Assembly (NCBI GenBank): GCA_038731975.1
Contig: JAVYQJ010000010.1
Location: forward strand, 1 to 52,461
Length of the DNA: 52,461 bases
DNA from: Thermofilaceae archaeon
GTDB lineage: Archaea; Thermoproteota; Thermoprotei; Thermofilales; Thermofilaceae
Reading direction: 5' to 3'
Below are positions 25,475 to 38,236 of the stretch, piece by piece. Numbering within the stretch: the stretch's first letter is position 1; each line of letters starts with the position of its first letter. The position numbers and the translations under genes were made by a program. Under the pieces are notes generated by a model, which saw only the letters and a program-made list of their open reading frames with translations, was not told the DNA's origin and ran no database searches.

Positions 25475-26152
25475 ATGTCGATTGTGGAGAGCACCGTAGA
25501 GGCTGCCCTCACGCTCCTTTCGAGTATGGGGCTCGCGGGGTTGTACGTGCTGGCAGTGCTAGAGCTGCTCCTCGCCCCGATACCGGGGGAAGTGGTGATG
25601 GCTCTCGCCGGCCTCCTGGCGAGCAGAGGCGATGTAGCTCTCTGGCAGGTGGTCACAGTGGGCACTTTGGGCAACCTGACTGGCTCTTTCATCCAGTATC
25701 TGCTGGGCTGGAAGATTGCCCGCCCCGTCTTAATCAAGCTGTTAAAACGCTTCTTTATAGACGAGCGGGACCTTGAGAAGGCGGAAAGGTTCTTCAGCCA
25801 GCGGAGCGGCTTCGCGGCCGTTGCCGGAGGAAGGCTGGTGCCGGGCGTGAGGTCCGTCATCAGCCTGCCGGCTGGCATGGCTAGGATGAGCCTACCGGCG
25901 TTTACCGCTGCGACACTGATTGGGAGTCTCCCTTGGAACGCGATTTTCGCTTACCTCGGCTTCGTGCTGGGGGAGAACTGGCACGTGGTACGAACGTACT
26001 CCACCTACCTGGACATCGCGGGTGCCGCGGTGCTGGCCGCGTTAACCGTCTACATTGCCCTTAAGCTGGCTGAGCGTAGTCGAAGAGCGCGCGCCAACCG
26101 CACACAGAGTACTCCTCCAGCACCCTCCGGTACACGTGAAGTAGGTACCTGA
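25475..26152 (+). CDS. DedA family membrane protein
   Basis: About 225 residues. The family core is present: ELLLAPIPGEVVMALAGLLA near the N-terminus, GNLTGSFIQYLLG, then GGRLVPGVRSVISLPAGMARMSLPAF and GSLPWNAIFAYLGF. DedA proteins act in lipid carrier or phospholipid movement and membrane homeostasis; the arginines in GRLVPGVR are the functional signature. ATG at 25475 is preferred over TTG at 25448 because the box CCTTATATTG (25441-25450) sits about 28 bases upstream and would include the TTG. The basic tail (about 25 codons) overlaps 92 bases of the glycosyltransferase gene on the other strand. Confidence 0.88.
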   Translation: MSIVESTVEAALTLLSSMGLAGLYVLAVLELLLAPIPGEVVMALAGLLASRGDVALWQVVTVGTLGNLTGSFIQYLLGWKIARPVLIKLLKRFFIDERDLEKAERFFSQRSGFAAVAGGRLVPGVRSVISLPAGMARMSLPAFTAATLIGSLPWNAIFAYLGFVLGENWHVVRTYSTYLDIAGAAVLAALTVYIALKLAERSRRARANRTQSTPPAPSGTREVGT

Positions 26153-27779
26153 CGATCTTATCCCACCTGTACAGCTCCTCCACCCTCCTCCTCCCCCTGA
26201 ACCCCATCTCCCTCGCAAGCTCAGGGTTGTTCAAGAGGTGCTCGATCGCTGCAGCCAGCGCTCCAGGGTCTTCGGGTGGCACTAGCAGACCCGTAACGCC
26301 GTCCTCAACGATCTCTGCTAGCCCGCCGACTCTTGAGGCTACGACCGGCTTGGCGGCCGCCATGGCTTCGAGCGCGACTATGCCGAAAGGTTCGTAGCGG
26401 GAGGGGATGACGACGATGTCCGCCAGCCTCATGGCCTTGTACAGCTCGCTGTCGCTGATCCTGCCAGTGAACAGGACTTTGCTGCCCAACCCGTAGCTCC
26501 TGGCCATCCACTCCAGGTGCATGCGCATAGGTCCATCGCCCGCGATCACGAACTTCGCGTCCCCCCTCCTCGATAGGACCATTCGCGCAGCCTCGATGAG
26601 AACGTCCACCCCCTTATCGTAAACGTGCCGGCCGGCGAAGAAAACTATCCTCTCCCAGGGCAGCGCGTACCTGTCCCTCTCCCCGGGTGCGGGCACATGC
26701 GCATCGACCTCTTCCAGGTCGATCCCGTTGGGGAGCACCGTCAACTTGTCGGAGGGCAGGGAGAAAGCGGCCATTACTTCGCCCTTCATCGAGTGGCTGC
26801 AGACGAAGACTCTCCAAGCTTCGTAAGTGAGCCTCCACTCCCAGTAGTGTATCTGACTCTGCATCGGCGTGGATATGCTCCCTCTGCTCCTCCCATACTC
26901 CGTGGCGTGCATCGTGGCGATGAGCGGAACCTTCAGCAGGTGCTTGAGCGCTACGGATGCCGGCGCGCTGAGCCAGTCGTGGGCGTGGATGATCTTCGGC
27001 CTGAAGCCGCTTTCCAGGACTTTCGCGATCATCAGCAGGTTGAATGCGTAGACCCACGATACGAGCCCCGTGCTCCTCAGGCGGAACGGGTCGACTCTAA
27101 GCACCATCAGATTATCATTGGTCTCGTCGTAAACCCTACCAGGCAAACCGAGCGTCAGCACACAAGTAGTAGTGTGGGCAGCCATCTTCCTAGCGATGCT
27201 GGTTACCGCGCGACCAAGACCCCCAACTACGTGTGGGGGGTACTCCCAGGAAACGTGGAGAACTCCAGAGGACTTGGCTGGTGAGGGGGCTCCCGCGGCT
27301 CGCCTTCGCGATACACGGCCCTTCAGCTTCTCCACTACCTCGTCAGCCTCAGCCTCTAGGAAGGATTCGATACTTTTGACAGTTTCCGACACAAGGCCGG
27401 AGCCTCCCCGTTCCTCCTCCCGCGTGTAGATGGAGTAGCGGAAGGGAAGGTTTAGTCGCTTCGATAGGATGTACGCGACGAGGGCGCCCATCCATTCGTG
27501 CCCTTCAACAACCTTGAGCCCGCGCGGGTCAAGCCTGTAGGGAGCCTCCGCCAGGGTCGTGAACAGCTCTATAAAGGTCCACTCCACGATGTCGGATGTA
27601 GCGACGCGCGGCGCGCTCCCCCCACCGATAACCTCCACGCCGTCGATAACCGTACGCCCCTCGTAGCCGATGAGTAGGACCTTTCCCCCCTCCCTCCTCA
27701 CGCTATCCCAGACCCAGCTGGCCAGCAGACCGGAACGCTTCAGCGGCTCTAGCTCTGACGTTACGTGTAGAATCGACAT
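26061..27779 (-). CDS. GT4-type glycosyltransferase with an extra N-terminal half-domain
   Basis: 572 residues. The C-terminal 400 form a full GT-B enzyme: VLHVSWEYPPHVVGGLGRAV, IIHAHDWLSA, VLPNGIDLEE, VFFAGRHVYDKGVDVLIEAA, FVIAGDGP and PSRYEPFGIVALEAMA with the E-x7-E donor-binding motif. This pattern is close to glycogen synthase-like GT4 enzymes. The first 165 residues (HVTSELEPLKRSGLLASW... GHEWMGALVAYILS) look like another, degenerate copy of a GT-B N-terminal domain. Donor probably ADP- or UDP-glucose, acceptor an alpha-glucan, inferred from the island of GH57 and GlgA genes beside it. Two bases separate it from the small upstream gene, so they form an operon. Its end overlaps dedA by 92 bases. 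Confidence 0.85.
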   Translation of the reverse strand: MSILHVTSELEPLKRSGLLASWVWDSVRREGGKVLLIGYEGRTVIDGVEVIGGGSAPRVATSDIVEWTFIELFTTLAEAPYRLDPRGLKVVEGHEWMGALVAYILSKRLNLPFRYSIYTREEERGGSGLVSETVKSIESFLEAEADEVVEKLKGRVSRRRAAGAPSPAKSSGVLHVSWEYPPHVVGGLGRAVTSIARKMAAHTTTCVLTLGLPGRVYDETNDNLMVLRVDPFRLRSTGLVSWVYAFNLLMIAKVLESGFRPKIIHAHDWLSAPASVALKHLLKVPLIATMHATEYGRSRGSISTPMQSQIHYWEWRLTYEAWRVFVCSHSMKGEVMAAFSLPSDKLTVLPNGIDLEEVDAHVPAPGERDRYALPWERIVFFAGRHVYDKGVDVLIEAARMVLSRRGDAKFVIAGDGPMRMHLEWMARSYGLGSKVLFTGRISDSELYKAMRLADIVVIPSRYEPFGIVALEAMAAAKPVVASRVGGLAEIVEDGVTGLLVPPEDPGALAAAIEHLLNNPELAREMGFRGRRRVEELYRWDKIVRYLLHVYRRVLEEYSVCGWRALFDYAQPA

Positions 27780-29755: not shown

Positions 29756-29987
29756 CGCGCGTCGACGTGCAGCTAAGACAGGCATCGGTGAGAGGAGGGG
29801 GTGATCGGGACCGCATCGAGCACATCTATCCATCGTGTTTCGCCCCCCTAGCTGCGAGGGGGAGCAGTTGGGCATGAGGCACGTCCCTAAGCCCCTTTCC
29901 CCTGCTCGCACGGATAGGACTTGGGGTGGTGAAGCATCGTGCTCGGCCCTATCGCGCTACGGATAAAAGCCGCCGGGTCTTGAGGAG
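29756..29987. other. intergenic region, no gene seen
   Basis: 232 bases between two GH57 genes. It contains a short GC hairpin, CCCCC/GGGGG around 29846-29865, and a TATA-like GGATAAAAGC at 29961-29970 for the next gene. No reading frame or RNA gene that I can support. Confidence 0.4.
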
Positions 29988-31070
29988 ATGATTACTGTGG
30001 ATTTCGTGCTTTACCTCGAGATGCATCAGCCGCTTGTCTTGAGGAGGGAGCCCCCCGCTAAGGTGGAGTCCTGGTGGGATTTAACGGACGTTGAAGCCAG
30101 CAAGGCCGCCTTCGAGCGGGCTCTGGGCTCATGCTACTTGCCGCTCCTCAGGACGTTTGAGGAGCTTGCCCCATCCGGCTTGAAGGTGGGGTTGCGCGTC
30201 AGTGGCGTCCTTCTCGAGTCGGCGGAGCTGTGGGGTAAGAGCCTCCTGGAGAGCTTGGCCTCCCTAGTCTCCATCGAAGCGGTGGAGCTTGTAGCCGGTC
30301 CTTACTTCAACTTGCCCCCTCTCATCTTTCCGGCTGACGAGCTGGTGGAGCAGGTGAAGCTGCACAGAGCAAAGCTGAAGGAGCTCTTCGGAGTCGAAGC
30401 CGAAGTCTTCGCTGCGCCCTATCTCGCTTACTCGGATGAGATTGGCAGACTAGTGAAGGACGAGCTGAACCTGAGGGTTGTGCTGGCTGAGGGGGCGACG
30501 CACGTGCTAGCCTGGAGGACGCCGCACTTCGTTTACAAGCATCCCTCGAGGGATCTTTCGATCCTCGTGAGGGATCAGGAGATCAGCAACCAGGTGGCCT
30601 TCGGGCTTGGGAAGTGGCTGACGGCCGCCTACATCGCTGAGAGGGCTTCAAGGATCGAGGGGACGACGTTGGTCGTCGCGGTACCAGCCGAAACATTTGG
30701 GCTCTCCGTACCCGCAAGCGCCGGTGCTTTCGAGTTCCTGCGCTGGCTGCCAAAGGAGCTCGCGAAGCACCCGTGGATTCGCTTCGCCACACCCAGCGAC
30801 GCGGCAGGTAAGGAGTATGTGGATGTGCTAAACGTCCCCCAGCCCGTAACGTGGCTCGAATCGAAGGACTTGCGCCCGTTGACGGAGAGCGCGGCTCAGC
30901 AGATGCTGCTGGCGCTACTGACGGAGCTGAAGGGAAGGGTGCAGTGCGAGCTGCTCGGGGCCTGGCGCTTCCTAGCGCAAGCTGACCTGCTGCTGGCTTC
31001 GAGAAGCATGGATGCCGCGCTCCGGTTAGCGAAGGCCCTCTGCGCACTGAGAGCCTCGGTGGGCAGTTGA
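29988..31070 (+). CDS. GH57 homologue lacking catalytic residues (probable pseudoenzyme)
   Basis: 360 residues, clearly homologous to the intact GH57 protein on the opposite strand (31026-32600): LYLEMHQPLVL against LIFEVHQPYRL, VLAWRTPHFVYKHP against VLGWRSPNYVYMAK, FEFLRWLPKE against FDFFEWLPVE, RFATPSDA against RFATPSEA. The catalytic parts differ. Region 2 is GPYFNLPP instead of CQTYFHSLA (His lost). Region 3 is VFAAPYLAYSD instead of VFENTELIYDN (nucleophile Glu lost). Region 4 is VAVPAETFGL instead of IFIDYETVGEH (acid/base Asp lost). The frame is open and well-formed, so it is not simply decaying. It is also shorter, missing the C-terminal part. Possible role: glucan-binding or regulatory subunit. 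Overlaps the convergent GH57 gene by 45 bases. Confidence 0.8.
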   Translation: MITVDFVLYLEMHQPLVLRREPPAKVESWWDLTDVEASKAAFERALGSCYLPLLRTFEELAPSGLKVGLRVSGVLLESAELWGKSLLESLASLVSIEAVELVAGPYFNLPPLIFPADELVEQVKLHRAKLKELFGVEAEVFAAPYLAYSDEIGRLVKDELNLRVVLAEGATHVLAWRTPHFVYKHPSRDLSILVRDQEISNQVAFGLGKWLTAAYIAERASRIEGTTLVVAVPAETFGLSVPASAGAFEFLRWLPKELAKHPWIRFATPSDAAGKEYVDVLNVPQPVTWLESKDLRPLTESAAQQMLLALLTELKGRVQCELLGAWRFLAQADLLLASRSMDAALRLAKALCALRASVGS

Positions 31071-32600
31071 GAAGGATTCCAATAACCTCTCGCACAACGC
31101 CTTGTACAGCCTCTCTCTCAGTTCCTCGCCCCTCAACCCTCGCATGCCCTCCACCTTCTCGGCTGCAATCACGTCACCCACTACGGATCGCAGCCACTCG
31201 GCCAAATGCCCGTTCTCGACGTGGAACTCCAAGCTCTGCGCAGGCACCCTCTTGACGATCTCGATCAGGTCGAGCCCGCTCCTGGCTACGTACGGGAGGG
31301 GCTCGCCCTCGCGTGCGAAGAAGCGGAACGCCTCCGACTCCGGAAGCGGCTTCACCCACCTCGCTACCTCCTCCTGCCGTGCAAGTCTGCTGAAGAGCTC
31401 CGCCTCGAGGCAGGCGATGGCTTCGGTGAAGGCGGCGAAGGCGTGGTAGGGGCTCGGGTAGGGGCTAAAGTAGCTGTGTACCTCGCCTGGACCCCCGCCC
31501 TTCGTACTCATGTAGTAGTAGTGGTCGCTTATCGAGAGGAGCCTCCACAGCCTGAGGGCGGCTGGGTCGCCGAGAGCTTTCACCAAGGGCTCGAGCCGAG
31601 CCTCCCTGGCGAGCGACATCTGCTGCATCATGTTGCCCAGCCAAGCTGAAGCATCCCTCTCCACGTCCGCCCAGGATATCGTCTCCGGGACATCTATCTC
31701 GTCAACAGGTGCATGCATCTCGATCGCCTCGCTTGGAGTCGCGAAGCGGAGCCCTCGCTTCTCAGCCTCGACGGGCAGCCACTCGAAGAAATCGAATATG
31801 CCGGTCTCCCTGGGGTAGTGCTCGCCCACCGTCTCGTAGTCGATGAAGATGCAGATGAGCTGGCCGGGTGTCGCGGCGAGCCACGTTGCGTACTTCTCAG
31901 CGGTGAGCGGGTACTCCTCCCACTTGACCGAGGCGAAGCGGAAGCCTACGTCGTCGCTCAACCTGTAGTTCCTGAGGAGCACCTTAATGTCAACACCCTT
32001 CGCCATGTACACGTAATTGGGCGACCTCCACCCCAACACCCTCTCAACGCCCTCTGTCACTACGGCACGGAACCCCAGCTCCCTGGCGATTCTGGCTACG
32101 TTGTTGTCGTAGATCAGCTCCGTGTTCTCGAAGACTCGCGGCTCGACGCCCAGCAGGTCCCGCACTCTCCGCCTGTGCATTTCGACCTGTTCTATGAACT
32201 CTATACGGGAGATGAAGTAGGCGAGCGAGTGGAAGTACGTCTGGCACAGCACCTCGCACTGCTTATGTCTGGCAGCCTGCTTGAACAGCTCGAGAAGATC
32301 CGGATCCCAGCGCTCAGCCTGCTCCAGCAGGACACCGGAGATGCTGTACGAGACCCTGAACCCCGGGTGTTCGTCGAGCAGCCTGAGGAACATCGACGTG
32401 GCGGGCTTGTAGCACCGCGACGAAACCCTCTCGAAGATCCTCTTCGTCAGCTCCTTGTCAAAGAATGCCTCTTCCAGCGCCTCGAACGTCTCTACCTTAC
32501 CGAAAGTCCTCCTCAGTAGAGGCTGCTGGGCCAGCCTGTAGGGCTGGTGCACTTCGAAGATGAGAACGATGTCGGGGCGCCCGGTCTGCATCCCAACCAT
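31026..32600 (-). CDS. GH57 alpha-amylase-like enzyme
   Basis: 524 residues, similar to the GH57 amylases encoded near glycogen synthase in methanogens and Thermococcales (for example Methanocaldococcus jannaschii MJ1611). Region 1 IFEVHQPYRL, region 2 CQTYFHSLA, region 3 FENTELIYDN with the nucleophile glutamate, region 4 FIDYETVGEH with the acid/base aspartate, region 5 helices in the C-terminal half (SISDHYYYMSTKGG). All catalytic residues are present. It should cut or rearrange alpha-1,4-glucan inside the cell. ATG at 32600; the AT box is shared with the divergent glycogen synthase gene, implying co-regulation of synthesis and breakdown. Confidence 0.9.
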   Translation of the reverse strand: MVGMQTGRPDIVLIFEVHQPYRLAQQPLLRRTFGKVETFEALEEAFFDKELTKRIFERVSSRCYKPATSMFLRLLDEHPGFRVSYSISGVLLEQAERWDPDLLELFKQAARHKQCEVLCQTYFHSLAYFISRIEFIEQVEMHRRRVRDLLGVEPRVFENTELIYDNNVARIARELGFRAVVTEGVERVLGWRSPNYVYMAKGVDIKVLLRNYRLSDDVGFRFASVKWEEYPLTAEKYATWLAATPGQLICIFIDYETVGEHYPRETGIFDFFEWLPVEAEKRGLRFATPSEAIEMHAPVDEIDVPETISWADVERDASAWLGNMMQQMSLAREARLEPLVKALGDPAALRLWRLLSISDHYYYMSTKGGGPGEVHSYFSPYPSPYHAFAAFTEAIACLEAELFSRLARQEEVARWVKPLPESEAFRFFAREGEPLPYVARSGLDLIEIVKRVPAQSLEFHVENGHLAEWLRSVVGDVIAAEKVEGMRGLRGEELRERLYKALCERLLESFSTAHRGSQCAEGLR

Positions 32601-32618
32601 GATGAATTACGGGTTGTC

Positions 32619-32627
32619 GTTATATTA
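32619..32627. promoter_or_regulatory. shared TATA box of GH57 and glycogen synthase genes
   Basis: GTTATATTA lies midway between the divergent starts at 32600 and 32649, about 23-27 bases from each. It reads as a TATA-like box in both directions and is the only one in the 48-base gap. Confidence 0.55.
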
Positions 32628-32648
32628 GGGTTGTCTCCACAAGCTCCC

Positions 32649-34154
32649 GTGAGAGTCTGGGTCATCAGCTTCGAGTGCGGGGGCGTCGCAAAGGCTGGCG
32701 GCTTGGGGGAGGCTGTGAGGGGCTACGCCTCGCGGCTGGCGGAGAGGGGCCACGCGACTAGGATCCTGATGCCCAGCCACGGATTGCGAAGCGAGAGCAG
32801 CGTAAGGCTGGGGGAGTTCACCTTCTACAGGAGGACTGTGGATGGCGCCGAAGTCATAATGGCTTCAAATCCCGTTTTAGACGAACCATCGATCTACGCT
32901 GGCGGGCTGACCGAGGCCAAGGCCGCCGCTCTTGCTAGAGCCGCTAAAGCCCTGGTTGAAGCGGAAGGACCCCCCGACGTTATCCACGCGAACGACTGGC
33001 ACGCGGTTCCAGCTGCGCTATCCGTGCTCTCCTCCGCTCCAGGGACGGCCTTCATCTTCCACGTTCACCTGTACCTGGGCTGGTGGGTGAGCTGGGATTA
33101 CCTCTTTCGAGACTGCGGCCTGGACCCCGGGAGCAGGTTGAGGGGCCTCAGCTTGGGTGAGGCTTACGGGAGGGCAAACGGCGTCATCGAGGTGCTGGCC
33201 GCGCAGCTCGCCGATTCAGTCGTGACGGTTAGCCGCGCGTACATGGAGGAGGTTTTGAGGCCGGCGGTCTGGTGGGCTGTCGGCGACCGGCTGACTTTCG
33301 TATATAACGGGACGGACTGGAGCTTCGGGAAGCTCGTTGAGGAGGCGAAACGGCACCACGCTCTACCGGAGCTGGGCGACGTCCGCTGCAGCCGGAGGGA
33401 GCTCCGGAGGTACCTTTTAACAGAGGCGATCGCTCGCGCGATCCCTAGGGTGAGCGACCCCAGCATGGCTTGGGCCGCCAGGGGTGCGCAAGCGTTCCCC
33501 TCGGACGGGCCTCTCGTGCTAGCCACGGGCAGGGCTAGCTGGCAGAAGGGCTTCGACGTCCTGCTTCAGGCGTCCGATCTTCTGGCCAGCGTCGTGCCGG
33601 GCGTGAGGTTCCTGCTCCTCCTGCTTCCAGCGAGGGGCGAGGAGGGCCACCTCTCCTGGCTGATTGGGGAGGCTGAGCGGAGGCCGCACGTGAGGCTCAT
33701 CGTCGGCCACGCGGCGGAAATCTACGCTCTGGCCCACCTGGCTGCCGATGCCTTTGCCGTCCCCAGCCGTTGGGAACCCTTCGGCCTCTCAGCGGTCGAA
33801 GCTATGGCCGCCGGCGTACCGGTGGCCGCAAGCGGTGTGGGTGGATTGAAGGAGACCATCGTCGACCTGAGGAGCGACCCCTCGGGAGGGACGGGCTACC
33901 TCGTCCCCCCGGAAAACCCGGCCGAGCTGGCGCGAGCTCTCGCATCCTTACTGGCTGTAACTGCGCGCGAGGATCTGGCAGCCTCCGGGGTGCTGGAGAG
34001 GGCGGAGTCGTTCGGCCTGCCCAAACCCTCCCTCTCAGATAGCGAGCTTAGAGCGCGGTGCGCAGCGAGAGCCGCGGAGTTCAGCTGGGCTAAGGCGGCT
34101 GAGCGGCTAGAAGAGATCTACCGTGACGCGTTGATCAGGGCTAGGGGCGCTTAA
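32649..34154 (+). CDS. glgA: glycogen synthase
   Basis: Transfers glucose from ADP- or UDP-glucose to the end of an alpha-1,4-glucan. The roughly 501-residue GT-B protein begins VWVISFECGGVAKAGGLGE, where K-x-GGL is the donor-binding motif of the GT5 family, followed by VIHANDWHAVPAA, FVYNGTDW, LATGRASWQKGFDVLLQA and PSRWEPFGLSAVEAMA (E-x7-E), and GYLVPPENPAELA. The GTG at 32649 matches both the family N-terminus and a TATA-like box about 26 bases upstream; the longer frame starts inside the neighbouring gene. Overlaps the convergent IolB-like gene by 14 bases. Confidence 0.92.
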   Translation: MRVWVISFECGGVAKAGGLGEAVRGYASRLAERGHATRILMPSHGLRSESSVRLGEFTFYRRTVDGAEVIMASNPVLDEPSIYAGGLTEAKAAALARAAKALVEAEGPPDVIHANDWHAVPAALSVLSSAPGTAFIFHVHLYLGWWVSWDYLFRDCGLDPGSRLRGLSLGEAYGRANGVIEVLAAQLADSVVTVSRAYMEEVLRPAVWWAVGDRLTFVYNGTDWSFGKLVEEAKRHHALPELGDVRCSRRELRRYLLTEAIARAIPRVSDPSMAWAARGAQAFPSDGPLVLATGRASWQKGFDVLLQASDLLASVVPGVRFLLLLLPARGEEGHLSWLIGEAERRPHVRLIVGHAAEIYALAHLAADAFAVPSRWEPFGLSAVEAMAAGVPVAASGVGGLKETIVDLRSDPSGGTGYLVPPENPAELARALASLLAVTAREDLAASGVLERAESFGLPKPSLSDSELRARCAARAAEFSWAKAAERLEEIYRDALIRARGA

Positions 34155-34890
34155 CCTGCAGGTGGCCCCCTACCTGGAAGCGCTCGAATCCGGGCTTTAC
34201 TTCAACTCTCATATTTTTCTCCCCCAAAGTCTGGCAGAGGACCCAGACGTAGCAGATCCTGCTACCGGGTGAGGCGACGTTCGGGTGGTACCCCCTCAAG
34301 ATGACCACGGCGTCTCCGTCTCTGACGATGTAGGAGTCGGCGCCCCCCTCGTCCTCTACGATCTGGACGCCGAAGCCATCCCCCAAGCCGTAGTACACGT
34401 AGACCTCAACCTTGTCATCGTGCTTGTGAGGCGGGAAGCTCGTCCACTCGCCCGGGAAACCTTCGGTGAACCCCGCTAGCAGGCTCGTGCCTGGATCGTT
34501 CACCCCCAACAGCGTGTAAACAAACCGCCTATAGCCCTCACCACCCACTAAGATGGGTTGAGCATCACCTGCGCGCTTTACCATCCACAAACCACTCAGC
34601 CTTGAGGGGGCCTCGGCTGCGACCAGCAGGCACCCCCGCCCCGCAAGCTGTACTTCGGTAGGACCTGCGACGTACAGTAGATCCCGCGCCCCCAGCTCAG
34701 TGGAGCCGAGCTCGCTCTCAACCCCGCACGATCCGAACGCGCACACGATTGCCGCTTCTCTCCCTTTGCCAACGCATACTTGGCCCTCCCCCTCCAGCAG
34801 CCCCCACGAGAAGGTGCGAGTCCCATCGCTCCACAGCACTTCGAACCAGCCAGGCTGCCTTAATGCTCGGCGGAAGATCGACCGTACCAC
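34141..34890 (-). CDS. IolB/KduI-like isomerase
   Basis: 249 residues in the double-cupin family of 5-deoxy-glucuronate isomerase (IolB) and related KduI. The signature block is GYRRFVYTLLG, TEGFPGEWTSFPPHKHDD and VEVYVYYGLGDGFG, followed by VILRGYHPNVASPGS: the HxH, Glu and second His positions are those of the metal site. Typical IolB is about 270 residues. The rest of the myo-inositol pathway is not in the window, so another uronate or ketose may be the substrate. GTG start at 34890 with a minus-strand box (34909-34919) about 26 bases upstream. Confidence 0.78.
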   Translation of the reverse strand: MVRSIFRRALRQPGWFEVLWSDGTRTFSWGLLEGEGQVCVGKGREAAIVCAFGSCGVESELGSTELGARDLLYVAGPTEVQLAGRGCLLVAAEAPSRLSGLWMVKRAGDAQPILVGGEGYRRFVYTLLGVNDPGTSLLAGFTEGFPGEWTSFPPHKHDDKVEVYVYYGLGDGFGVQIVEDEGGADSYIVRDGDAVVILRGYHPNVASPGSRICYVWVLCQTLGEKNMRVEVKPGFERFQVGGHLQVKRP

Positions 34891-34908
34891 AACCCTGCCG
34901 AAGCGTCC

Positions 34909-34919
34909 ATCTCTAAAAA
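34909..34919 (-). promoter_or_regulatory. TATA-like box of the IolB-like gene
   Basis: TTTTTAGAGAT on the minus strand, about 24-26 bases before the GTG at 34890. Confidence 0.5.
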
Positions 34920-34976
34920 TGGTTGCTGGTATAGTGTTGGCTGTGTATTCGCTCTCTCAAGTAGATCACGCCTTTT

Positions 34977-34990
34977 CAGGTTCGAACCTG
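34977..34990. repeat. 14-bp perfect palindrome
   Basis: CAGGTTCGAACCTG sits in the 240-base gap between the divergent IolB-like and iron alcohol dehydrogenase genes. A dimeric regulator could bind it. It also mimics a tRNA T-loop, but the surrounding sequence does not fold as a tRNA. Confidence 0.45.
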
Positions 34991-35100
34991 GCTTTCTTGC
35001 GCTGTAATGGGCGACTGTCGCCGGAAGTCACGGGTACCCGATTATGCGCATGGTCAGTTCGATCTCCGCTGTACTTCAGTTAGGGGTTCGTAGCGTTACA

Positions 35101-35110
35101 CTTTCATATG
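35101..35110 (+). promoter_or_regulatory. TATA-like box of the iron alcohol dehydrogenase gene
   Basis: CTTTCATATG about 26 bases before the ATG at 35131. Confidence 0.45.
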
Positions 35111-35130
35111 CGCGGAGTAGGGGAAGTCCT

Positions 35131-36264
35131 ATGGATGAACATTTGAAGAGTTTCAAGTACAGGTACGCTGGCATCGAGCTCTACTTCGGCCCCGGTGCGA
35201 TCAGTGGGCTGGAGGATTGGTTAAAGAGGCACGAGAGGGTTCTAATTGTGACGGGGAGGAGGTCGGCGAAGGAGAGCGGGGCTCTTGACGATGCGCTCAA
35301 GATCCTCTCTCGGCACGGTGTAGCGTACGAAGTCTTCAGCGACGTTACCCCGAACCCGTGGGCCAGCCAGGCTGACAGGATGGCAGAGCGCGCCTGGTCG
35401 ATGGGTGCTGAAGCTATACTGGCCATTGGAGGGGGCAGCGTGATTGACGCGGCGAAGGTCGCCGCGATGATCGCGGTGAGCGGCGGTAGAGCATCCGACT
35501 ACGTTTACGGGCGGAGGAGGGCGAGGGGGTGCCTCCCGGTTTACGCGATCAACCTTACTCACGGCACGGGTACTGAGGTCGACCGTTACAGCGTCCTGAC
35601 GGTCGATGAGACGAGGGAGAAGCGGGGGATGGTTTCGATCTACCCGACAGCCTCTGTCGACGACCCGCTCTACACTCTGACGCTTCCGAGGGACCAGACC
35701 ATCTACGTTTCGCTCGACGTGTTCTACCACGCCTACGAGTCTGCCACGCAGCGCGATTCGCCGCCAATCGTTGAGCTCCTGAGCGCTGAAGCCGTCAGGT
35801 TGCTCGGCATGTGGCTGCCTCGAGCCGTTGAGAACCTCAACGATCTTGAGGCGAGGTACTGGCTCCTCTACGCTTCGATGCTGGCCGGCGTGGCGATAGA
35901 CATTTCGGGAACCCACGTCAACCACTTGCTGGAGCACGAGCTGAGCGGGGCTAACCCCAGGCTGGCGCACGGCTGCGGCCTGGCTCTCCTCGGGCCGCGG
36001 GTGGTTTACTACACTCACAAGCTTGCGCCGCAAGCCTCTGCTGCTGTGCTCAGGGCTCTGGAACCATCGATAAGGCCCGTGCCTGACGACGCGGAGAAGG
36101 CCATGAGGGTTGTGAAGGAGTTCCAGGAAAGCGTGGGGTTCCGAGAGAGGTTGAGCGATTACGGATTCTCGGAGAGCGACCTCAGAGCGATCGCTCGCAA
36201 GCACGCTGGCCTCATGGGCTTCAGCGAGGAGCAGCTGTTCGACATCCTCAAGTCAGCCGCTTGA
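35131..36264 (+). CDS. iron-containing alcohol dehydrogenase
   Basis: NAD(P)-dependent group III alcohol dehydrogenase of about 377 residues. The N-terminus YRYAGIELYFGPGAIS, the nucleotide-binding AILAIGGGSVIDAAK, and GTGTEVDRYSVLT are standard. Metal ligands are visible: Asp in VSLDVFYHAYES, His in that block, His in HVNHLLEHELSG, and His in LAHGCGLAL. It would reduce or oxidise a small alcohol, aldehyde or sugar alcohol. The ATG at 35131 is chosen for the box about 26 bases upstream; the frame extends to 35044 without family similarity. It ends 12 bases inside the convergent TIM-barrel gene. Confidence 0.9.
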   Translation: MDEHLKSFKYRYAGIELYFGPGAISGLEDWLKRHERVLIVTGRRSAKESGALDDALKILSRHGVAYEVFSDVTPNPWASQADRMAERAWSMGAEAILAIGGGSVIDAAKVAAMIAVSGGRASDYVYGRRRARGCLPVYAINLTHGTGTEVDRYSVLTVDETREKRGMVSIYPTASVDDPLYTLTLPRDQTIYVSLDVFYHAYESATQRDSPPIVELLSAEAVRLLGMWLPRAVENLNDLEARYWLLYASMLAGVAIDISGTHVNHLLEHELSGANPRLAHGCGLALLGPRVVYYTHKLAPQASAAVLRALEPSIRPVPDDAEKAMRVVKEFQESVGFRERLSDYGFSESDLRAIARKHAGLMGFSEEQLFDILKSAA

Positions 36265-37170
36265 CAAGTGCCTTTCAACCATAGCTTCCAGGAACCTTTT
36301 CGCCTCCAGTACCTCTTCGTCCAGCCGCCCTCTTAGATCCGGGCCTCCCACGTCAACCGCCATTGGGCCGCTGAACCGGTGCTTTCTCAGCGCCTCGAAT
36401 AGGCCATCCCAGTCTACCGTGCCGCGGCCAGGAGCCCAGTGGTAGTTGTCGCGCCCATCGTTGTCGGAGGCGTGGACGTAGAAGATCCTGTCCGCGAGCT
36501 TCTCGACCGATAGGGGTATCAGCTCCTTGGCAGCGTGGAGGTGTCCCACGTCCAGCACCGCGCCGAAGTTGGCTTCGCCAACCTCGTCGATGAGGCGGAG
36601 CATCGCGTCGCTGTTGCTGATGGTCTCCCCGATGCGGGGCTCGACGGCTAGCTTCAGCCCCCTATCAGCCGCCACCTTCGCAGCCCTTCTCATACCATCT
36701 ACAACAATTGACCAGAACCGGCGCCAGGAGAAGCTTGGGTCAACCTTGACCCTGTATCGCTCGCCGAACACTACCGCGCTGGAGTAAGGGCGTGGGCCGA
36801 CAAACTCGAGCGGCGGGGTGAAGGTGTCGGTCTGCATCAGCTCAGCGCCAAAGTAGACGGCCAAGTCTGCCGCTCGCGCGAGTAGTTCAATCGCTTTCGC
36901 CCTCTCAGCCTCGACCGGCGATACGAGCTCGCGGAAGATCCCAGCGAAGTTGACAACCTCCAAACCCAGCGCATCCAGCGTTTTCCGCAGCTCGCTCCGC
37001 CTACTCTCGATCTCCTGCAGGTTTGCCTCCCCGACTGCTTCGATCTCAACGTACTTGAAGCCCAGTCGTGCTGCGTCCTCGAAGGCTTTCACCATACCAT
37101 CGACGGGGGTCGGGTAACCGTACTTCGTGATCGCGTAAAGCCAGGCGAGGCAGATTTTCGCGTGCCGCAC
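36253..37170 (-). CDS. sugar phosphate isomerase/epimerase-like TIM barrel protein
   Basis: About 305 residues of the xylose isomerase-like/AP endonuclease 2 fold: FKYVEIEAV, VNFAGIF, LAVEPRIGETIS (metal Glu), GAVLDVGHLHAAK (metal Asp and His), IFYVHASDNDGRDNYHWAPGRGTVDW (His, Asp and the W-x-P-G-x-G pattern) and AVDVGGPD. Related proteins are hexulose/inosose dehydratases and epimerases (IolE, Hyi, DTE). With the IolB-like gene close by it may process inosose- or uronate-type sugars; that is inference. GTG at 37170 has a minus-strand box (37191-37200) about 25 bases upstream, better than the longer frame from 37209. Confidence 0.82.
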   Translation of the reverse strand: MRHAKICLAWLYAITKYGYPTPVDGMVKAFEDAARLGFKYVEIEAVGEANLQEIESRRSELRKTLDALGLEVVNFAGIFRELVSPVEAERAKAIELLARAADLAVYFGAELMQTDTFTPPLEFVGPRPYSSAVVFGERYRVKVDPSFSWRRFWSIVVDGMRRAAKVAADRGLKLAVEPRIGETISNSDAMLRLIDEVGEANFGAVLDVGHLHAAKELIPLSVEKLADRIFYVHASDNDGRDNYHWAPGRGTVDWDGLFEALRKHRFSGPMAVDVGGPDLRGRLDEEVLEAKRFLEAMVERHLSSG

Positions 37171-37190
37171 ACGATCAAGCCTGCGGGGTT

Positions 37191-37200
37191 TCTTATAAGC
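37191..37200 (-). promoter_or_regulatory. TATA-like box of the TIM-barrel gene
   Basis: GCTTATAAGA on the minus strand, about 25 bases before the GTG at 37170; decides the start. Confidence 0.55.
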
Positions 37201-37232
37201 TCGCTCCACCGCGAAGGGCTACTTAAGGGAGA

Positions 37233-37252
37233 GACCGCGGTTGGACGCGGTC
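37233..37252. repeat. 7-bp inverted repeat between thiR and the TIM-barrel gene
   Basis: GACCGCG and CGCGGTC flank a 6-base loop in the 148-base spacer. It could be an RNA hairpin at the end of the thiR transcript or an operator. Function unknown. Confidence 0.4.
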
Positions 37253-37318
37253 CAATGGAAGAGGTCGATGCAACGGAGCGCAACCGGGCTCCGCGGTCAA
37301 AATCGCGTTTCGAGGATC

Positions 37319-38236
37319 TCAAGGAGAGGGTTGGGCAACCACTGAGCGAGCGATTCTTTCCGCGCAGAGTACCACCTCAACTGCGCTCGCGCCGAAGATG
37401 TAAGTCACAGGCTCAATCCCACGGCCCCCTGTATCGGCGACGACCCTCGGCAGTGTCCCTTTCCGCCTCCTTTCGTGTACTGCAGCAGCCGCCGGGTTTG
37501 GGGAGGGGTAGTCCTCGCTGGAGAACCAGGTCCACTCTAAACCTAGCTCTTCGAGAGCTCTTTCCACGCGTTCGTCAAACCTGATGTCGATGCAGGCTGA
37601 GTAGCCGGAGGCTAAAAGCACCTCTGCAAGGTGTTTCGAAGCCCCGAACGCTGGTTTGCGTCTCGCAATCAGCCTTCCACCAACCTTAGCCAACCTCCCC
37701 GGTACGGCTGCAACATCCCTCACGCTCACTGCCCCCGGCACCGCTCGAGCTATGTTCACCATCACTTCGGGAGCCACCGATGCCAAGCGCGTCGACGATT
37801 CGGCCAGAACGATTGCCCTCTCGAGGTCCGCGAGAGCCATCCCCCTGTGCGCCGTCAACCTCGGGTACAAGGCAAGGGTGCAGGCGGTGCAGCTCATGAG
37901 GGACCAGTTGTTGCGCTTATGCAGCCGGCAGGCGCCACCCGACGCGGCTACAAGCAGCCAATACCTGTGCGCGAGAGCGGATGCTTCCACTACCCTGCCT
38001 GAAGCGAGAAGCTCGAGGAGCCTACCGACCAGAAGCTCCGCCTCCAGCTCGTCGATTCCCAGCTCAGCGAGCTTCAAACCTCTCTCCTCGTTCAGCAGCT
38101 TACTGACAGCCGCCTGGCTGACGCCAAGAACCCTCGAGATCGCCCTCTGCCCCCACCCTTTCCCTCTCAGTTCCTTCGCGAGCATGGCCCGCAGGGGTGA
38201 AAGGTAGTACTCCTTGAGCTCGTCCGCAGGTATCAT
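37319..38236 (-). CDS. thiR: ThiR, thiamine-responsive transcription regulator (HTH plus ThiN domain)
   Basis: 305 residues. The N-terminal helix-turn-helix is GQRAISRVLGVSQAAVSKLL (about residues 28-47). A cysteine pair SCTAC follows at about 134-138. The C-terminal half (about 145-300: EVMVNIARAVPGA, DVAAVPGRLAKVGGRLI, FGASKHLAEVLL, ACIDIRFDERVERALEELG, and VVADTGGRGIEPVTYIFG) is a ThiN thiamine-phosphate synthase-like domain. In archaea HTH-ThiN proteins act as repressors of thiamine genes, sensing thiamine phosphates. The divergent gene is the thiamine transporter component thiT, and matching palindromes lie in both promoters. ATG at 38236; TATA-like box ACTTTTAAGC about 28 bases upstream. 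Confidence 0.9.
   Translation of the reverse strand: MIPADELKEYYLSPLRAMLAKELRGKGWGQRAISRVLGVSQAAVSKLLNEERGLKLAELGIDELEAELLVGRLLELLASGRVVEASALAHRYWLLVAASGGACRLHKRNNWSLMSCTACTLALYPRLTAHRGMALADLERAIVLAESSTRLASVAPEVMVNIARAVPGAVSVRDVAAVPGRLAKVGGRLIARRKPAFGASKHLAEVLLASGYSACIDIRFDERVERALEELGLEWTWFSSEDYPSPNPAAAAVHERRRKGTLPRVVADTGGRGIEPVTYIFGASAVEVVLCAERIARSVVAQPSP

Follow-up and report, generated by a model that had tools for sequence, protein, structure and literature searches.

Why should an archaeon keep a GH57 homologue that has lost its catalytic residues beside GH57 genes that are intact, and what might such a protein do? The question is raised by a gene, here called P0001, in a 52,461-nucleotide stretch of DNA (the window) that represents contig 10 of a Thermofilaceae genome assembly (G000; 1.85 Mb, 95% complete). 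GH57 homologues without catalytic residues are a described class, listed in sequence surveys with no function (PMC6037648). The evidence assembled here indicates that P0001 is probably a retained pseudoenzyme of one kind or another. Two aspects are new: a clade that has lost the whole catalytic centre together with CSR-5 while under purifying selection, and the operon-like tie of a dead GH57 gene to an intact gene of the amylopullulanase type. Because the genomic context is fixed, a candidate partner is intact, and there is evidence of selection, the function of a dead GH57 protein becomes testable.

Identity and predicted fold of the dead protein

P0001 (29988..31070, forward strand) encodes 360 aa, with an ATG start and zero internal stops. 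The PF03065 profile places it in the GH57 fold family, with a score of 149.6 bits (cut-off 21.2) and an alignment that covers profile positions 1-283 of 291, and the same profile matches all six orthologous proteins. Pfam adds no further domain to P0001 or its orthologues, NCBIfam has no name for P0001 or for its intact GH57 neighbours (P0002 and P0003), and a phmmer search of the PDB with P0001 yielded no match. The GH57 alpha-amylases of the P0002 type, which include a characterised enzyme from Methanocaldococcus jannaschii (PMC11046441), belong to the same Pfam family, and P0001 shares 34% identity with P0002 across the barrel (E 9e-50). In contrast to these enzymes, P0001 lacks the His, Glu, Asp and CSR-5 and is shorter (360 aa vs 524 aa for P0002).

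An AlphaFold2 model of medium confidence, built from three sequences only (pTM 0.65, mean pLDDT 61.6), supports the barrel, the C-terminal part excepted (residues 275-360 have pLDDT <50 and are unreliable). When this model was compared with PDB structures in a fold search, GH57 enzymes were the best matches (1K1X, E 1.1e-12, TM 0.52), and related (polysaccharide) deacetylases ranked below them. Assembly or frame artefact was ruled out as a source of P0001, as six assemblies from three genera contain the gene together with its neighbours.

Loss of the catalytic centre

From a comparison of P0001 with P0002, the first-pass annotation held that the region 2 His, the region 3 nucleophile Glu and the region 4 acid/base Asp had all been replaced, and an alignment of the six dead proteins with 37 intact homologues of the class, GH57 alpha-amylases, confirms it. 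The CSR-2 His position is occupied by Asn108 (30309..30311, forward strand), Asn being found in 6/6 dead proteins and His in 37/37 intact ones. Tyr145 (30420..30422, forward strand) stands at the nucleophile position, where the dead proteins have Tyr (5/6) or Phe (G007) and every one of the 37 intact proteins has Glu. The acid/base position, Asp in all 37 intact homologues, is Pro throughout the dead clade (Pro233 in P0001; 30684..30686, forward strand). From P0002 to P0001 the motifs change from QTYFHS to GPYFNL (His124 to Asn108), from NTELIY to APYLAY (Glu161 to Tyr145) and from IDYET to VPAET (Asp254 to Pro233). Glu161 of P0002 (32118..32120, reverse strand) aligns with Glu123 of the 4-alpha-glucanotransferase structure 1K1W (TLGT), so the nucleophile had been chosen correctly in the earlier comparison; the P0002 acid/base residue, Asp254 (31839..31841, reverse strand), was located by alignment. 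Since the replacements recur in five orthologues while the 37 intact homologues keep all three residues, the pattern is not due to chance.

The losses extend beyond these three positions. CSR-5 (SDHYYYMSTKGGGPGEVHSYFSPY) is cut down to ADLLLASRS in P0001, its loop is deleted in 6/6 orthologues, and the SWADxERDxSAWLGN motif is gone. The CSR-1 HQP motif (His13-Gln14-Pro15; 30024..30032, forward strand), which had been described as remaining, does so in P0001 but reads NQP in the orthologue from G002. At 73 highly conserved columns (>=97% conserved among intact proteins), the dead clade keeps 21 in 6/6 members, has deleted 6, and has lost or varies at 39; seven have changed to the same alternative residue in every member (H124N, T160P, R221G, F222L, D254P, D312E and W320L). 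The dead proteins all retain Q14, P15, R195, W289 and D333, five residues that are conserved among the intact enzymes.

Measured against an active GH57 enzyme, P0001 thus lacks the CSR-3 Glu (end of strand beta-4), the CSR-4 Asp (end of strand beta-7) and CSR-5. With nucleophile, acid/base and active-site His all gone, the GH57 retaining mechanism is impossible for this protein, which would be expected to have no glycosidase activity. The GH57 AAMY-like proteins (PMC6037648) are similar to P0001 in being alpha-amylase-related and in lacking one or both catalytic residues. Unlike them, P0001 has also lost the active-site His and, through the deletion of CSR-5, no longer has the five CSRs expected of that group; Martinovicova and Janecek (2018) left out sequences obviously without a CSR (PMC6037648). 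A related-locus search of genome contigs with P0001 gave one distant Bacteroides protein, which has Asn for the Asp as its sole replacement and fits the published "like" group.

Orthologues and purifying selection

Orthologues of P0001 (47-69% identity) occur in five other genomes, three of the same genus (G001, G002 and G003) and two of other genera in the same family (G006 and G007). In a profile search of 81 genomes of the class, the six dead proteins scored 596-648 bits and the next best protein 265; no dead gene was found among these genomes beyond the six. Complete genomes from a different genus of this family likewise lack it, and the dead gene is therefore lineage-specific. A phylum-wide search with a DNA pattern for the altered CSR-3 returned matches that were mostly due to chance. 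In G001, an apparent fusion (a 939-aa open frame) overlies the upstream P0003 orthologue in another reading frame and is read as accidental.

The frame, first noted as open in the window, is undisrupted in all six genomes, which span three genera. Between G000 and its nearest relative, G003, the Nei-Gojobori dN/dS of P0001 is 0.195, similar to that of P0002 (0.176) and P0003 (0.222); for the remaining pairs dS is mostly near saturation, and pN/pS ranges from 0.28 to 0.56. Purifying selection on P0001 is about equal in strength to that on its intact neighbours, and neither a disrupted frame nor relaxed selection, as would mark a pseudogene, was found. Intact frames, this dN/dS and the conservation of the replacements themselves uphold the earlier suggestion of a pseudoenzyme retained for another role.

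Gene neighbourhood and candidate partners

Directly upstream of the dead gene in 6/6 genomes lies P0003 (28046..29755, forward strand), an intact GH57 protein of the amylopullulanase type whose nearest solved structure is 7e1y, the Staphylothermus marinus amylopullulanase. Its orthologues share 55-69% identity, are catalytically intact in 6/6 and, in the order searched, are confined to the same six genomes as the dead gene; this co-occurrence is phylogenetically not independent. Between the P0003 stop and the point where the P0001 frame opens there are 211 nt in G000, against 0-45 nt in the five others. The gap between the two genes is 232 nt here (29756-29987), with nothing recognised in it, and makes co-transcription less sure than in the relatives.

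On the other side, P0002 (31026..32600, reverse strand; 524 aa), an intact GH57 protein of the alpha-amylase type, is convergent with P0001, and here the ends of the two genes overlap over 45 nt (31026-31070); in 6/6 genomes the two face each other tail to tail. Beyond P0002 lies a GlgA-like GT5 protein of the starch synthase type (32547..34154, forward strand), the true start of which is probably further in, as its first codons overlap P0002. GlgA had been suggested as a partner. It is adjacent again in G006 but absent beside P0002 in G002 and G007, and the contig ends in G001 and G003. With adjacency in two genomes and absence in two, GlgA is unsupported as a fixed partner; the constant upstream neighbour is P0003.

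A GT4-type glycosyltransferase gene (26061..27779, reverse strand), divergent from P0003, is part of the conserved block in every genome whose contig extends that far. In G024, which represents another family of the same order, a P0003-type gene, a GT gene and an intact GH57 alpha-amylase gene lie side by side.

Origin of the dead clade

A maximum likelihood tree (LG+I+G4, 402 columns) recovers the dead clade as monophyletic (support 100), with a stem of ~1 substitution/site, and positions it outside the P0002 clade, near G024-type proteins. The first-pass annotation had treated P0001 as a close paralogue of the convergent P0002, a view that the tree does not favour. P0001 is probably not a recent tandem duplicate of P0002, although long-branch attraction in the placement of the clade is possible. 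An origin by such a duplication, with catalysis lost later, is a question independent of function and appears rather doubtful. It would account for the convergent neighbouring positions of the two genes and for the presence of P0002-type proteins among the closest matches (34-40% identity). Against it, the tree joins the dead clade to other GH57 alpha-amylases, among them the intact one of G024, which itself adjoins homologous GT and P0003-type genes, and AU tests gave p=0.03 when the clade was forced beside the six P0002 orthologues and p=0.058 when the constraint covered the whole family. The AU value of p=0.03 for a tree constrained to G024 is left out of this conclusion; that tree was perhaps not fully optimised.

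Proposed function and alternatives

As all catalytic residues are lost and the gene is under selection, P0001 is probably a non-enzymatic helper or a glucan-binding subunit, and the conservation of both the altered residues and the neighbouring genes suggests that it serves the same pathway in a structural or binding capacity. P0001 may have been retained as a structural component of alpha-glucan metabolism, in which it would bind alpha-glucan chains, dock on an intact GH57 neighbour, or both. The first choice of partner would be the upstream, probably co-transcribed P0003, and the second the convergent P0002. A hetero-oligomer of this type could position the glucan for its active member, as ISA2 does with ISA1 in plants. 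ISA2, itself noncatalytic, forms a complex with its catalytic paralogue ISA1 and affects the form of the glucan (PMC12510319). By analogy, P0001 resembles it in that selection has kept a noncatalytic paralogue of an enzyme acting on alpha-glucan, whereas ISA2 is a eukaryotic GH13 protein and its complex with the active paralogue, proposed for P0001, is demonstrated. We regard the chances as roughly even that P0001 is an ISA2-like noncatalytic GH57 subunit or glucan-binding partner of its GH57 neighbour.

A somewhat unlikely alternative is that P0001 acts as a regulator or chaperone through protein contact alone and binds no glucan (a decoy subunit). Substrate contacts were probably made by CSR-5 and by the SWADxERDxSAWLGN motif, and the loss of both argues against ordinary GH57 glucan binding by P0001; the loss of many other substrate-side residues and the conserved gene neighbourhood also fit a decoy. 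Retention of the five residues shared with the intact enzymes (Q14 to D333) in all six dead proteins argues the other way.

Less probable still is a new catalytic activity in the old cleft, for example through Glu235, Glu168 or Tyr145. The two glutamates (Glu256 and Glu183 in P0002) are kept in 6/6 dead proteins, 32 positions are invariant in the dead clade and unconserved in the intact clade, and polysaccharide deacetylases are among the structures that the fold search matched to the GH57 barrel. Yet Glu235 and Glu168 are invariant in the intact enzymes too and so are not new, and the Pfam search reveals no added domain. Tyr145 was rejected as a substitute nucleophile, since it is not conserved (Phe in G007).

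Neutral decay, with P0001 a pseudogene on its way out, would agree with the loss of catalytic residues and the long stem branch (~1 substitution/site) but is extremely improbable given that the frame is intact in all six genomes (three genera, 47-70% identity), that dN/dS is ~0.2 and that the replacements are fixed.

Relation to glucan branching

The preferred reading of P0001 as a noncatalytic GH57 subunit touches on a gap in archaeal glycogen metabolism. According to a review, TACK archaea contain glycogen but have yielded no branching enzyme so far, and the GH57 amylases are suspected (PMC11046441). Searches of G000 (95% complete) for the GH13 domain (PF00128) and for the C-domain of GH57 branching enzymes (BE_C, PF09210) found neither, and its PF03065 proteins are P0001, P0002, P0003 and one P0003-type protein on contig C6 (L004), with no others. 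These GH57 proteins, or something unknown, would therefore have to account for any glucan branching in G000, and the cluster is a reasonable place to look for the missing enzyme. The more specific idea that P0001 is the noncatalytic subunit of a hetero-oligomer with P0003 or P0002 that supplies the branching activity is speculative and very unlikely to be correct.

Additional features of the locus

Residues 1-165 of the GT4-type glycosyltransferase form an N-terminal extension that resembles a vestigial GT-B N-terminal half. This extension is 22% identical to the protein's own GT domain (E 3e-4) and 30% identical to a 202-aa frame that stands by itself immediately upstream of the GT homologue in G024 (L106:10167-10772). 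If the extension is indeed such a remnant, the cluster contains a second duplicate that lacks a catalytic half of its own. A further frame in G024 (L106:6436-7956), directly downstream of the P0003-type gene, appears by eye to encode a glycogen phosphorylase-like protein or a related glucosyltransferase. Beside the cluster in the window (34141-38236) are genes for a KduI/IolB family protein, an iron-containing alcohol dehydrogenase, a xylose isomerase-like TIM barrel protein, and a ThiN-domain protein with an N-terminal region that, by eye, is helix-turn-helix-like and of the DNA-binding type.
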